Assembly: GCA_019186965.1 (NCBI GenBank)
Contig: JABARV010000008.1
Span: forward strand, 1 to 64,000
Source: Turneriella sp.
GTDB lineage: Bacteria > Spirochaetota > Leptospiria > Turneriellales > Turneriellaceae
Direction of reading: 5' to 3'
DNA: 64,000 nt
Made by a program: the position numbers and the translations under genes. Each line of letters starts with the position of its first letter. Within the stretch, counting starts at the first letter, position 1. The notes under the pieces were generated by a model. That model worked only from the letters and a program-made list of their open reading frames with translations, was not told the DNA's origin and searched no databases. Positions 21,760-28,537 of the stretch are shown here, in pieces.

Positions 21760-21815
21760 GGAGGTTGGGTAAAAACCCACGTGGTTAGGCCGAAACTCGC
21801 GAAGCCAAGAAAGGA

Positions 21816-21868
21816 AGTAACTTTTTTGCACATTTTGAAGCGCGGTTCGCTTAAAGACGCGAAATTTT
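21816..21868. repeat. Partial copy of the dispersed palindromic repeat family
   Basis: The intergenic stretch with GCGCGGTTCGCTTAAA and CGCGAAATTTTAAA matches the middle of the left arm of the 27500-27711 palindrome (GCGGTTCGCTTAAA and GCGAAATTTTG). Only one arm is present. It lies between the TPR gene and the ParA-like gene. Confidence 0.5.
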
Positions 21869-21891
21869 AAATTTTACACTCGATCTTTAAA

Positions 21892-23316
21892 ATGGAAAAA
21901 CAAGAATCGTACCATGAGCTTTTTGTCAGCCTAACACACGAAGAGATTGTGTCGCTTCTTGCGCTACCTTGGCAAGCCGAACCTATTTTGGGAGAAGCTG
22001 TTGCGGCTATACTTTCAGAAGAAGTTGGACTACTCTATTTAAATGGTTTTATTCCTTTTACCGAAATAATAAAGAAAGACAGGAAGTATCCACAGGACGC
22101 ACGCTACTTAAAAACAGATATCCTTGCACAATACCTTTTAGAAAATCGCTCTCTATTACGCGCATACCTTTCACGCGTTGAAAAATTATCTACGTTTACG
22201 TGCGAAGTACCACAGTCGTATATTGCGCATGTCACGAGCGAACAACCAGGAATGGAAGCGGCAAATTTTGCAATTTTTTTAGGAGCGCATCTTCAGCGCC
22301 AATCTGGTAAAACACTTCTCATAGACGCCGATCCACAAAACCAATCTCTTTTTTCGCTTTTAACTTTTTCTGAAGAACCGAAGCTTTTAACAGAGAACTT
22401 ACAAAAGCCAACAACATTTAAAAACGATCTTGCAAAAGTAATTGTTCCTTTAAGCCCAAACATTTCGTATTTGAATTTGCAATCTTTAAGCTTACGCCCT
22501 TTTAGTGAGGCGGAGCTACAGCGCATTTGTGGCTTTCTCGAGATGGATTTTGATAACCTTGTTTTCTATGCGGGCCGCCACGAAAGCCGCTGGCTATCCC
22601 TTAACGCCCAGATAAATTACTGTGTTTGTGAAAACACACTTAAAAGCGAACAAAGCGCTCTTATCCGACACCGTGGGAGCTTACATACTGTTTTGCTCAA
22701 AAAAGGCGATACGCCCTATTTACCGCGTTTAGGAAAAGTTTTTTTAAAAAAACGTGAATTAACAGCATGGGCTCAAGAAGAAAACGAAACGCTTGCACTC
22801 CGCACATTTATCCTTCACCTTTACCGTACAAAAAGGTTGCTCCTTGCAGGCGATGACAAAGAAGAGAATACTCTTGGCGTATATACCGGAGTTGATCTTT
22901 TCGCGCATTACCTCGGCCTTAAAAGAAGCGAAGCAGAAAAAGCTCTTAAGCTCCTCCAAAAAAAATTAACCGCGCACTATCCCAAAAAAACTTTTTTTAG
23001 CACGTCCTCTTTCCTTAAGCATTTAAAAACTCTTCTTGAAACGGCAGCGACAACTATTTTAGAAATCGGTAGCGAACCACAACTGGTAAGTTGTATTGAC
23101 TCGGTGGAGCTTAAAGCTGCCGCAATTCTTCCAGCGGGAATTTACCCTGCAACTACATACAAAGATATACGTATCGCTGCATGTTCCGCTTCTGGTTTTG
23201 TGCGTTTTAAAGAACGGATAGAACGCGGCGGCATAACAAGCATTTTTACTAAGCCTAAAATACCGCTCAAGAACCCCAATGCATTGGCCGCTGTTATGGA
23301 ACAATTGCAACCGTAG
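21892..23316 (+). CDS. ParA/MinD-like protein lacking a Walker A lysine
   Basis: 474 residues. The central part (about 110-260) resembles the ParA/MinD fold: a position equivalent to the P-loop reads TSEQPGMEAANFAIFLG, then HLQRQSGKTLLIDADPQNQSLFSLL, which matches the ParA switch (LLIDADPQ). The P-loop has lost both conserved lysines of KGGxGKT, so ATP hydrolysis is doubtful. A preceding helical domain (about 1-110) and a C-terminal domain of about 200 residues have no recognised family. It may be a pseudo-ATPase partner in chromosome, envelope or polar positioning, which is inference. It follows the TPR/Mrr gene in the same direction after 132 bp. Confidence 0.6.
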   Translation: MEKQESYHELFVSLTHEEIVSLLALPWQAEPILGEAVAAILSEEVGLLYLNGFIPFTEIIKKDRKYPQDARYLKTDILAQYLLENRSLLRAYLSRVEKLSTFTCEVPQSYIAHVTSEQPGMEAANFAIFLGAHLQRQSGKTLLIDADPQNQSLFSLLTFSEEPKLLTENLQKPTTFKNDLAKVIVPLSPNISYLNLQSLSLRPFSEAELQRICGFLEMDFDNLVFYAGRHESRWLSLNAQINYCVCENTLKSEQSALIRHRGSLHTVLLKKGDTPYLPRLGKVFLKKRELTAWAQEENETLALRTFILHLYRTKRLLLAGDDKEENTLGVYTGVDLFAHYLGLKRSEAEKALKLLQKKLTAHYPKKTFFSTSSFLKHLKTLLETAATTILEIGSEPQLVSCIDSVELKAAAILPAGIYPATTYKDIRIAACSASGFVRFKERIERGGITSIFTKPKIPLKNPNALAAVMEQLQP

Positions 23317-23342: not shown

Positions 23343-24755
23343 TCAGATAACTTCTTTTTTTCTTAAAAAAGAAAAGGGTAACCAATAAATAAAATAAAAA
23401 AGATACGGAATTATCGAAGCAAAAAATCCTGCAATTGCAGAAGGAAAATCTTCTGCACGGATTTGTACCCAAAGGCTTAGTTTTTCCCAAAAAAGCCATA
23501 CAAGAAAACCAAGCGACATACTTAAAACAGTAACAGTTGCATTCGTGCAGCGCGTGAAAAAGCCAACGAGAAAAGGCACAAATAGTGCGACTAAGCCAAT
23601 CGCCGAAGAGTCCATCACTAAGTCGTGTATGTGCCTTTCCACATACGCTGTGTGTGCAGCCCAAAGAGCTATACCAATAGTGCTAAGTCTTGAAAGAAGA
23701 AGAAGGTATTTTTCGTTTGGAAAAACTTTTCGTAAAAGATTTTCACTCACCAAAACAGAAGGTGCAAGAAGTGCGCCGCTTGCAGTACTCAAAATAGCCG
23801 AAAGGAGAGCTCCGAAAAAAATTATTTGGATAAAAAGCGGCGTCTTAAGCAAAATCACCTGCGGTAAAAGGTGTTGCATGTCTTTTGGCAATTCGGCAGT
23901 TGTCAGCATGCCGGTAGCAATCAGCCCTAAAAAAAGCGGAATCATTGCAATCGAAACATAGAGAAAACCTGCAAGTATAGACGAAGCGGCAGCGACGGTT
24001 CCACTTTTGGATGACATAACGCGTTGAAAAACATCTTGGCCAGGAATGGAACCAAAACCCAAAACAATCCAAAGTGAAACATAATGGAACCACTGAATTT
24101 TACCTTGTGGCAAAAAAGAAAAATGCGAGGCAGGTACTTTGCTAAAAATTTTTTCCCAACCACCGGCCTGTGGTACAAGAAGGAGTAAAACTGTGACAAG
24201 CCCTACGATAATTAGTGTCGTTTGTAATGTATCGGTTAGCGACACTGCCCACATACCGCCCATTGTGGTGTAGAGTGCAACAAGGGCAGCCATGAGTAAA
24301 ATTGCCGCCTCGAGAGATATTCCCGTAACCGTTTGCATAACAATTCCCAACGCAATAAATTGTGCCGCAACCCAACTAACGTACGAGTACGCCAAAACAG
24401 AAGAAGACACGACTTCAGCAAATACACCAAAGCGTACTCGAAAAAAATCGCCAAAAGTTGTGAGGTTCATCGCGTATAATTTTTTTGCAAAAATTGCTCC
24501 CACCAAAATTAAACAAATAGCGGCGCCAAATGGCTCTTCGATAACTCCGTAAAAACCATCGCGTACAAAACTTGCCGAAGAGCCTAAAACGGTTTCTGAA
24601 CCAAACCACGTTGCAAACACAGTCGAGGTCGCCATAAAAAGTGAAAGATTTTTTCCCGCTAAAGCAAAATCGCGATTATTTTTAACCTTCCGTGCGGCAA
24701 AAAAGCCTACAAGAAGCGTCGCAAGAATATAAAGTACAACGCCAAGAGTGAGCAT
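23343..24755 (-). CDS. Sodium/solute symporter (SSS family)
   Basis: 470 residues with about 13 transmembrane helices. Family features include an N-terminal RDFALAGKNLSLFMATSTVFATWFG stretch (seen in two pieces, about residues 28-52), the YTTMGGMWAVSLTDTLQ segment (about 165) and GQDVFQRVMSSK around 245. Members import organic solutes such as proline, pantothenate or acetate using a Na+ gradient; the substrate cannot be decided here. Its ATG overlaps the stop of the hydroxyacyl-CoA dehydrogenase gene by one base, suggesting translational coupling and possibly uptake of an organic acid that the dehydrogenase pathway consumes (inference). Confidence 0.88.
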   Translation of the reverse strand: MLTLGVVLYILATLLVGFFAARKVKNNRDFALAGKNLSLFMATSTVFATWFGSETVLGSSASFVRDGFYGVIEEPFGAAICLILVGAIFAKKLYAMNLTTFGDFFRVRFGVFAEVVSSSVLAYSYVSWVAAQFIALGIVMQTVTGISLEAAILLMAALVALYTTMGGMWAVSLTDTLQTTLIIVGLVTVLLLLVPQAGGWEKIFSKVPASHFSFLPQGKIQWFHYVSLWIVLGFGSIPGQDVFQRVMSSKSGTVAAASSILAGFLYVSIAMIPLFLGLIATGMLTTAELPKDMQHLLPQVILLKTPLFIQIIFFGALLSAILSTASGALLAPSVLVSENLLRKVFPNEKYLLLLSRLSTIGIALWAAHTAYVERHIHDLVMDSSAIGLVALFVPFLVGFFTRCTNATVTVLSMSLGFLVWLFWEKLSLWVQIRAEDFPSAIAGFFASIIPYLFYFIYWLPFSFLRKKEVI

Positions 24756-25618
24756 TAAGCACTATAAGTAAAAAAACCGCGTCCTGTTTTTTGTCCCAAG
24801 TGCCCCGCTTCGACTTTTTTTCTAAGCAACATACACGGGCGATACTTGGGGTCTTGGTAATTTTCGTAAAGAGACTGTGTAACGGCAAAAACAACGTCGA
24901 GTCCAATAAAGTCTGCAAGCGCAAGAGGCCCCATTGGGAAATTATACCCAAGCTTCATCGAGGTATCAATGTCTTCTGCAGACATTAAATTTTCTTGGAG
25001 TGCAAAAATTGCTTCGTTGATGAGAACAATTCCCAGCCGAGATGTAATAAAACCCGGTGCGTCTTTACAGATAACAGGTTCCTTTGCTAAAGTATGTGCA
25101 ATTTTTTTTGCAAGCTCCAGTGCGTCGCTTTCCGTTGCCTCTGTAGTTATAATCTCAAGGAGTTTCATTACACGCGGTGGATTAAAAAAGTGCATTCCTA
25201 ATACGCGCCCCTGCCTTTTAGGGTTAACCGCTGTCGAAAGCTGTGTAATCGAAAGCGATGATGTGTTACTCGCAAAAAGTGATGCATCGTGTGCGCGTAA
25301 ATCGAACTCTGCAAAAATTTTCTTTTTTATCTCAATATTTTCTGTAACTGCTTCGAGCATAAAATCGTATTGCAGTTGTGTTTTGCCAAACCCTGCAAGG
25401 AGATTTAACCTTCCCGATATGTCTATGGGAGGTTTCCCTTGTTCGACTGCTTTTTGGTTGTCTTTCATCATCCATTTTTCAAAGCACTCAGCAGCCTGGG
25501 CGCGTACCTTCTCGTTTAAATCGATTACATCAACCTGCGCTTTGGGGTATGCATGCGCAAAAACATAGCCAATACCGGCACCCATTGCGCCACCACCAGC
25601 AATTAGGATTTTTTCCAT
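24755..25618 (-). CDS. 3-hydroxyacyl-CoA dehydrogenase
   Basis: 287 residues from ATG 25618 (MEKILIAGGGAMG); an ATG at 25633 is also possible and neither has a good ribosome binding site. The NAD-binding Rossmann motif is GGGAMGAGIGYVFA, and the catalytic histidine lies in MHFFNPPRVMKLLEI with the paired Glu just after. The C-terminal domain shows PGFITSRLG and FPMGPLALADFIGLDV. Length and form fit single-domain 3-hydroxybutyryl-CoA dehydrogenases (Hbd/PaaH type), which interconvert 3-hydroxyacyl-CoA and 3-ketoacyl-CoA. It is upstream of and overlaps the SSS symporter. Confidence 0.92.
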   Translation of the reverse strand: MEKILIAGGGAMGAGIGYVFAHAYPKAQVDVIDLNEKVRAQAAECFEKWMMKDNQKAVEQGKPPIDISGRLNLLAGFGKTQLQYDFMLEAVTENIEIKKKIFAEFDLRAHDASLFASNTSSLSITQLSTAVNPKRQGRVLGMHFFNPPRVMKLLEIITTEATESDALELAKKIAHTLAKEPVICKDAPGFITSRLGIVLINEAIFALQENLMSAEDIDTSMKLGYNFPMGPLALADFIGLDVVFAVTQSLYENYQDPKYRPCMLLRKKVEAGHLGQKTGRGFFTYSA

Positions 25619-25759
25619 TGCGTTGGAGTCCATGCGGCAAGATAGATGTGCGAAATACGCCGACACGCGCAAAACAATACGGCGGGTAAAAAACCTTGAT
25701 TATCTCTTGCTAAAGAAGGATATGGCTTTAAAAATGGAGTGTTTTTTTTAGGAGGGAGT

Positions 25760-27013: not shown

Positions 27014-27457
27014 TTACGCTGTCGCGTTTTCTTGAGGTGCGCTTGGAGCAGCTACAGGCTTTGAAGCTTTATACGCTTGTGCTTTTTCGTAGAAGGGATC
27101 TTTTATGCTTTTACGTACAATTTCTTTAAGTCGGCTATCTTTGCCTGATTTTTCGCGGAGGTAGTAAAGTTTCGCACGGCGTACTTTGCTTGAACGCATG
27201 CGCTCTACCTTGGTAACAGTAGGTGCGTAGAGGGGAAAAATACGCTCTACACCCACGTCAAAGCTTATGCGGCGTACGGTAAATGTTTTCCCTGCGCCTT
27301 GGTTTTGTATTGCAATTACAAGCCCTTCGTAGACCTGGATACGTTCTTTTTGGCCTTCTTTAATTTTATAATGTACTTTAACGGTGTCGCCCACAGAAAA
27401 ATCGAGCGGTTTGGAGACTACATCGTAGTTTAATTTTTCGAGAATTTGGCTAAGCAT
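27014..27457 (-). CDS. rplS: 50S ribosomal protein L19
   Basis: 147 residues; the conserved L19 core includes FSVGDTVKVHYKIKEG, RIQVYEGLVIA, FTVRRISFDVGVERIFP and RAKLYYLREKSGK. It is longer than the usual length of about 115 by a C-terminal Ala/Pro/Lys-rich tail. It sits at the 50S/30S interface. rnhB follows immediately; trmD, the usual upstream partner, is not here. Upstream lies the large palindrome instead of a normal leader. Confidence 0.96.
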   Translation of the reverse strand: MLSQILEKLNYDVVSKPLDFSVGDTVKVHYKIKEGQKERIQVYEGLVIAIQNQGAGKTFTVRRISFDVGVERIFPLYAPTVTKVERMRSSKVRRAKLYYLREKSGKDSRLKEIVRKSIKDPFYEKAQAYKASKPVAAPSAPQENATA

Positions 27458-27499
27458 TTCCCTTTATGCCATTTTGAGACAGGGCGTCAATCGTTGTAA

Positions 27500-27711
27500 G
27501 AGCCTGTGCGCCAACTCGCGCAGCGTTAGTTAAAGAGGCAATTTTTTTGCAAATTTTTGTACGCGGTTCGCTTAAAAGTGCGAAATTTTGCACAAATTTG
27601 GGTGTCCTCGCCCCTTGCAGAGCGAATTGGCGCAATTCGTGGAGGAATTTGTGCAAAATAGCGTACAAAAATTTGCAAAAAAATTGCTACAGCGAGTTGG
27701 CGCACAGGCTC
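27500..27711. repeat. 212-bp interrupted palindrome between rplS and mlaA
   Basis: Outer arms 27500-27519 (GAGCCTGTGCGCCAACTCGC) and 27692-27711 are a perfect 20-bp inverted repeat. An inner pair, 27538-27564 and 27661-27687, is perfect over 27 bp (it contains GCAATTTTTTTGC and TTTTTGTACGC). A third pair, 27585-27598 and 27646-27659 (ATTTTGCACAAATT), extends it. The centre is about 45 bp and GC-rich. The arms are collinear, so the region could form one long cruciform or RNA hairpin. It fills the gap between two divergent genes and no protein-coding frame is convincing. Single-arm relatives occur at 246-300, 21816-21868 and 45770-45812. Confidence 0.9.
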
Positions 27712-27742
27712 GTGACTTATTGGTAACCCAAAAATCGTTTAC

Positions 27743-28537
27743 GTGCTTCTGCGTTTCTTACGATTAACATATATTGTGCGGGTTGTAGTAGGGCTTGTAA
27801 TTTTATGTGGTTTTGTAACCATGCAATGTAGCAGTGCGCAAACAAAAAACAAGGCTACGGTTGAAAACTCGCAAGATGCGGACTCTTTTGACGACGATTT
27901 GCCGATTTCGGATCCTCTCGAAAAAGTTAACCGAAAAGTCTTTGCGTTCAACGATGTGTTCTACCGTTATCTTTTGAATCCGTTGGCTACCGCTTGGAAC
28001 TTTATAATGCCGCAGTTTTTGCGCGTAGGTATAGATAATTTTTTTTATTGGATTTATACTCCAGGGCGGCTTATCAATAACCTATTACAGGCAAAATTTG
28101 TTGGCTCAGCGAAAGAAGTAGCCTATTTTGCAATCAACGGGTCTGTTGGCCTTTTGGGTTTTTACGACGCCTCACAGGATATTTTTGGTTTAGAAAAAAC
28201 AAACGAAGACACCGACCAAACTTTAGGAAAGTGGGGTATAGGCGAAGGCGCGTATATATTATATCCCTTTATTGGGCCTCGAACAGTACGTGGCACGTTT
28301 GGTTTTGTAGGGGATTTATTTCTACAGCCACAAACGGTATTTGTTCCACGCTACGTTGCTCCGCAAACGGTGTGGGAGCAAGCGGGAATTGTTGTCGGTA
28401 CGTATACTGTGCGTACGGTTAACGGAGTATCTTTAAGTTTGGGCGCGTACGAAGGTCTAGTGAAAGATTCTATCGATCCGTATTCTTTTTTTCGTGATAT
28501 TTATTTACAAAATACACGAAAGAATGTCGACGACTAA
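27743..28537 (+). CDS. mlaA: MlaA (VacJ) family lipoprotein
   Basis: 264 residues from GTG 27743. The signal peptide ends in FVTMQC|SSAQ (lipobox). The MlaA domain includes DPLEKVNRKVFAFND, YWIYTPGRLINNLLQ and YILYPFIGPRTVRGTFGF. MlaA removes misplaced phospholipids from the outer leaflet of the outer membrane and hands them to periplasmic MlaC. mlaC follows 3 bp downstream, which supports the assignment. The inner-membrane MlaBDEF parts are not in the window. Confidence 0.93.
   Translation: MLLRFLRLTYIVRVVVGLVILCGFVTMQCSSAQTKNKATVENSQDADSFDDDLPISDPLEKVNRKVFAFNDVFYRYLLNPLATAWNFIMPQFLRVGIDNFFYWIYTPGRLINNLLQAKFVGSAKEVAYFAINGSVGLLGFYDASQDIFGLEKTNEDTDQTLGKWGIGEGAYILYPFIGPRTVRGTFGFVGDLFLQPQTVFVPRYVAPQTVWEQAGIVVGTYTVRTVNGVSLSLGAYEGLVKDSIDPYSFFRDIYLQNTRKNVDD

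Follow-up and report, generated by a model that had tools for sequence, protein, structure and literature searches.

A palindrome between rplS and mlaA in Turneriella is probably a copy of a MITE-like element with a conserved branched fold and exchangeable ends

MITEs are usually viewed as decaying scraps in which the ends matter and the middles do not. REP/BIME elements, which go with RAYT, consist of a palindrome of 20-40 nt that carries a GTAG/CGTC tag and lies beside a Y1 transposase, and they show no target duplication. Bacterial MITEs, including Chunjie of Geobacter, QMITE of Coxiella and ERIC of the enterobacteria, have been reviewed (PMC10969869, PMC2229807), and the element described here, from a Turneriella genome, is like all three in being short, non-coding and mostly intergenic, in having terminal inverted repeats and target duplications, in forming a stable stem-loop if transcribed, and in having many truncated copies. 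The class, MITE, is known; what is new is the combination of a strongly conserved, strand-biased branched fold with exchangeable ends.

The window (the whole 64,000-nt stretch of DNA that was analysed) contains a 212-bp interrupted palindrome flanked by two divergent genes, rplS (PF01245) and mlaA (PF04333), and its forward strand is the 'sense' strand, that is, the strand with the conserved fold. The coordinates are collected in Table 1. The sequence-only reading had described a palindrome of this length with perfect arms of 20, 27 and 14 bp, a GC-rich centre of about 45 bp, these divergent neighbours and no convincing gene, and all of this was recovered: the outer and middle arm pairs, at the positions of helices P1 and P2, match at 20/20 and 27/27 positions (100%), the inner pair (27585-27598 with 27646-27659) matches at 14/14 (100%), the centre (27599-27645) is 47 nt long with 62% GC compared to 45% in the window, and the 212 bp, a length below the 500-600 bp that bounds MITEs in size, hold no convincing ORF. 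The folding energy of the palindrome as RNA is -118 kcal/mol, compared to -66 +/- 4.6 kcal/mol in shuffles (z = -11.5), and the 27-bp arm pair ranks first among the inverted repeats of the window; these data indicate that the palindrome is not a product of chance. Beyond what had been noted, the centre forms two extra hairpins and there is one side hairpin, and these are conserved in relatives. No match to the palindrome was found in Rfam at the gathering score; weak matches under permissive settings were mostly to plant and animal microRNA hairpins and were taken as chance. A promoter and terminator scan of 27400-27800 found nothing.

Table 1. Features of the palindrome and its immediate flanks, in window positions.
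Feature	Position	Strand	Remarks
Complete element, 212 bp	27500..27711	+	covariance model matches 28 other places in the genome; ends from the family's 4-bp target duplications
Left terminal inverted repeat (5' side of helix P1), GAGCCTGTGCGCCAACTCGC	27500..27519	+	
Right terminal inverted repeat (3' side of helix P1)	27692..27711	-	
Helix P2, 5' side, 27 bp perfect	27538..27564	+	double compensatory change in 22/27 pairs across the family
Helix P2, 3' side	27661..27687	-	
Side hairpin P3 (27567-27571 with 27580-27584)	27567..27584	+	double change in 4/5 pairs
Helix P4, 5' side	27585..27599	+	G-U 40 to A-C 3 in P4
Helix P4, 3' side	27645..27659	-	
Hairpin P5, family consensus GGCGTCTTCGCC	27600..27613	+	
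Hairpin P6, family consensus GCGAATCG..CGATTCGC	27622..27640	+	
Imperfect target duplication, left half GTAA	27496..27499	.	
Imperfect target duplication, right half GTGA	27712..27715	.	3/4 positions match
TTGACG motif upstream of rplS, intact	27485..27490	-	also in T. parva and G006

The host genome (G000; 3.08 Mb in 27 contigs) was searched together with genomes of the same genus (G001-G006, of which G005 is Turneriella parva). A DNA search of the host genome returned ten further matches of 211-218 bp at 87-98% identity, four matches of about 260 bp, five copies of a second type (B) whose ends differ, and numerous partial copies. Built on the core, and with both strands of one place in the match table tallied as one, a covariance model placed the element at 29 dispersed loci in the host genome, so that the genome-wide search proposed by the sequence-only reading yielded about 29 detectable copies there. 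In the relatives the same model matched 19 places in T. parva, 25 in G006, 22 in G004 and two each in G003 and G002, but neither G001 nor any of 41 other genomes of the class gave a match. As far as searched, the family is confined to the genus Turneriella, judging from these model matches; a search of plasmids and phages for similar DNA gave nothing meaningful, and a literature search on Leptospira and MITEs found no paper. Full-length copies measure 202-214 bp, almost all of them 210-214, and identity between species is roughly 72-83% in BLAST-aligned regions. With the longest ORFs standing in for curated gene annotations, each of the 47 full-length copies examined is intergenic, none lying inside an ORF, and with respect to tandem genes the two orientations are equally common (12 to 11). 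Two other traces of the family lie in the window: a degenerate B-type copy at 21780-21890 (GTGGTTAGGCCGAAACTCGCGAAGCC...) that has lost its right arm and that the model matches weakly at 21817-21908 (E = 0.0014), and a fragment at 240-300 (GTGGGTAGCGCCAACTCG... AATTTTTTTACAAATTTTTGT) whose end looks like a B/A hybrid.

Full-length copies carry terminal inverted repeats of about 20 bp, and copy ends were set by these repeats before flanking duplications were counted. Exact 4-bp direct repeats flank 27 of 44 full-length copies, compared to a mean of 1.2 and a maximum of 6 in 2000 shuffles, and no exact 5-bp repeat flanks any of the 44. The targets are YWDR-like, TTAG being the commonest. The target duplications that the sequence-only reading had thought worth seeking are therefore a property of the family, but the window copy itself has an imperfect pair. 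In two cases one copy has inserted into another: at L017 a B copy flanked by duplicated GCAT interrupts the end of an A copy, which is the equivalent of an empty site, and at L007 an A copy lies within an A-like fragment with TTGG duplicated. Internally shortened derivatives that keep both ends measure 138-140, 116, 114 and 97 bp, down to minis of 31-44 bp; two of the minis have exact duplications (L034, TTTA; L037, TAAG), and others have none, the flanks of some extending the palindrome. Such flanks were seen at L082, L094, L090 and L050, mini-palindromes of 44 bp and 38 bp in which the flanking bases prolong the palindrome outwards and no direct repeat is present. Internal inserts were also found, of about 48 bp in L012-L015 and about 40 bp in L109 and L110, and the insert of L012-L015 itself resembles an inverted repeat (CCAAAGCGGCGTGCAACGCC...GGCGCTTTGG).

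Because the copies are dispersed, fixed in size, intergenic and flanked by 4-bp target duplications, the palindrome is best read as a copy of a small, non-coding, non-autonomous, MITE-like element that is mobilised in trans and whose body is kept as a conserved hairpin, a reading to which we assign a probability of roughly 85%. The dispersed copies, exact ends, 4-bp duplications, derivatives that keep both ends and nested insertions are shown directly, and the MITE-like option raised from the sequence gains further support from relatives, whose orthologous genes lack the element. The verdict follows from every completed test, the matching transposase being the exception. Against it stand the failure to find a transposase with such ends, ends that vary more than the core, and the imperfect duplication around the window copy.

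The fold was assessed on an alignment (A2) of 39 full-length copies from five genomes with the RNAalifold structure, which comprises 78 pairs in six helices (P1-P6). Pairing is maintained in 97.2% of cells, 47/78 pairs show double changes, and 549 cells are changed on both sides compared to 160 in shuffles; pairing falls to about 40% if the partner is shifted by one column. These data demonstrate that the branched hairpin P1-P6 is held by compensatory change. Selection acting purely on double-stranded DNA should leave G-U and A-C about equally frequent on the same strand; however, G-U outnumbers A-C on one strand by 111 to 25 over all cells and by 41 to 7 in the non-redundant count, with helix P4 by itself at 40 to 3, and the alignment fold of the reverse strand is much poorer (-86 vs -121). 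The pairs were picked by an energy model that allows G-U and the structure was predicted on that strand, a bias in strand choice that is lessened, though not wholly removed, by counting only the 62 pairs predicted from both strands, where the ratio is 58 to 16, or 25 to 6 non-redundant. The excess favours a constraint on the plus strand, in the orientation of the window, as RNA or single-stranded DNA, and the fold of one strand seems to be constrained, which falls short of proof. The structured transcript over both leaders that had been suggested is thus retained in part: the compensatory change and the excess of G-U over A-C suggest one constrained strand, the transcript itself being putative, but coverage of the leaders finds no support, because the element falls outside the stretch that is conserved ahead of rplS and the copies have no gene-orientation bias.

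While the core is conserved, the terminal 13 bp vary both between and within species, and both arms vary together. In the host genome the same core is enclosed by GAGCCTGTGCGCC (type A), by GTGGGTAGGCCGG (type B) and once by GAGCCTGTTTATGATCT (type C), and in relatives the ends include GTGACTCGGCGGG, GTGACTAGGCGGG, GAGTTTAGGCGGG and GAGCCTGTGCGGG, among others. The type C copy, L029 (G000:C13:12788-12939), has the conserved core between these quite different repeats and no obvious target duplication. Outside the genus, in a genome of the same order and another family (G013), a small palindrome, GAGTCTGTGCGC-TA-GTTGGCGCACAGACTC, at L059 (1431-1523) has the GAGCCTGTGCG end type, and the core is absent. 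The core tree mostly tracks the genome, and the six end types require eight changes on it; this greater variability of ends than of core is the opposite of what is expected for a MITE with one transposase. Two hybrids, L025 and L049, combine a left arm of type B with a right arm of type A and have no target duplication, as expected if copies had recombined, and the matching arms of ordinary copies suggest that hybrids are later corrected arm to arm.

The MITE-like element would be mobilised in trans by a transposase, most likely of the DDE kind, that recognises its 20-bp terminal inverted repeats, cuts YWDR-like targets with a 4-bp stagger and inserts the element between genes. One strand may then be selected as RNA or single-stranded DNA, perhaps because the fold assists mobilisation or because a folded transcript prevents insertions from harming the genes beside them. 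The arms could be renewed together through arm-to-arm correction after recombination between copies, and the hybrids, whose two arms differ in type and which have no target duplication, resemble intermediates of such a process. A transposase with ends GAGCCTGTGCGCC, which the sequence-only reading had expected to identify the mobiliser, was not found among three DDE families or by end patterns. DDE_Tnp_1 (PF01609) is represented by a single gene each in the host genome and in T. parva, the ends being unrelated in both cases, and by none in G004 or G006; DDE_5 (PF13546) had no match over the cut-off in the genus, with one sub-threshold fragment in G004, and DDE_Tnp_1_2 (PF13586) had no match in the genus. 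The complete T. parva genome has no wide pair of matching ends, every exact end in it belonging to a short element, and the end patterns had no match in viral contigs. An IS5/IS4-type element of the DDE_Tnp_1 kind was rejected, since the element holds no gene and the DDE_Tnp_1 genes have other ends. Either the autonomous partner has been lost or is unsampled, or the enzyme belongs to a family other than those searched, or it does not have these ends.

The failure to find a matching transposase also speaks for a structured-RNA or single-strand-dependent element, in which the folded strand, copied from RNA or present as a single-stranded hairpin, is the substrate and the fold, not the end sequence, is recognised. 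Such recognition would explain the fixed length, the free exchange of ends, the co-changing arms and the G-U bias on one strand, and it agrees with a length and fold fixed across species and with ends that are variable yet complementary; however, exact ends with 4-bp duplications, and internal deletions that spare both ends, are what DNA transposons typically show, and we consider this account improbable, although the strongest of the rivals. If true, it would be a new route of movement for a small bacterial element. Less probable still is a REP/BIME family dispersed by a RAYT (Y1) transposase. The host genome does have two Y1_Tnp genes, and there are mini-palindromes (31-44 bp) that share the ends of the element, but each Y1 gene is flanked by unrelated palindromes of its own, the ends of the element (GAGCC/GTGAC/GTGGG) have no GTAG/CGTC tag, and the target duplications are of exactly 4 bp, which Y1 enzymes are not known to make. 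The first Y1 (RAYT-like) gene, at L032 (G000:C7:27103-27426), is accompanied by tandem 25-bp units with CGTTGCCACGGGTTTAAAC palindromes, and the second, at L033, by different palindromes, neither set being related to the element.

The sequence-only reading had named a locus-specific regulatory structure as the alternative to a mobile element. Such a structure of rplS-mlaA (an attenuator, a shared leader or a cruciform switch) has in its favour the strong fold and the short distances to the rplS start codon (42 bp) and to the start of the mlaA ORF (31 bp), but it is the least probable account and is refuted as the main explanation by about 28 further places at unrelated genes of the host genome and by the lack of an element at the rplS and mlaA orthologues of relatives. 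T. parva and G006 retain a block of rplS, rnhB and the gene at 24755-25672, and most relatives retain the block mlaA-mlaC-zapA; the two blocks are not adjacent there, and the window copy therefore marks a synteny breakpoint. No element was found near mlaA in the relatives examined, nor upstream of rplS in the sequence read from them. As for the empty sites that the sequence-only reading had envisaged, the element is absent at rplS and at mlaA in relatives, but the junction itself does not occur there. The motif TTGACG precedes rplS in T. parva and G006, and the intact motif of the window lies nine bases outside the element. The GTAA/GTGA flanks match at 3/4 positions, as do 7% of unrelated flank pairs by chance. 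Because the element is absent in relatives, the blocks lie apart and the duplication is imperfect, the window copy is, on comparative sequence grounds, not ancestral at rplS-mlaA, and it may be the scar of a recombination that joined two gene blocks rather than a simple insertion. A recombination partner was sought by looking for the rplS and mlaA neighbour genes of relatives beside other copies in the host genome, and none was found at the loci examined; a scan of named genomes for MlaA gave only distant Desulfovibrio. Given the 31 bp to the mlaA ORF start, the element and the predicted mlaA promoter probably overlap, or the real start codon lies further inside, and a local effect of the element on mlaA expression is possible.

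The MITE-like family provides a natural test of selection on RNA or single-strand structure in small mobile elements and a test case for the way in which the two arms of long palindromes stay matched; it also supplies a clean marker set for Turneriella genomes, and the window copy marks a rearrangement junction beside a ribosomal protein gene. Compared to known systems, RUP of pneumococcus is similarly small and intergenic with inverted ends; however, RUP is linked to IS630-Spn1 and its ends match an autonomous IS at TA targets (PMC2229807), and no such element was found for the Turneriella family. The stem-loop repeats of Borrelia plasmids (PMC2674063) are likewise intergenic, come from a spirochaete and have stems with compensatory base changes, but they were proposed as RNA motifs on plasmids, whereas the Turneriella copies lie in chromosomal contigs with target duplications, a distinction drawn from descriptions. 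Correia/NEMIS of Neisseria (PMC2229807) is palindromic, a possible RNase III substrate, and has two size classes with an internal insert of about 50 bp, to which the 212 and about 260 bp of Turneriella correspond; going by description, the Turneriella element is set apart by its 4-bp YWDR-like target and by having no known mobiliser. Dissimilar from Chunjie, QMITE and ERIC, the Turneriella element has a branched fold of six helices, which compensatory change maintains in several species at a length of about 210-214 bp, and it is strand-biased with terminal repeats that change. Taken together, the family reverses the usual view of MITEs: its middle and fold are conserved across species, its ends are replaced, and one strand is favoured.
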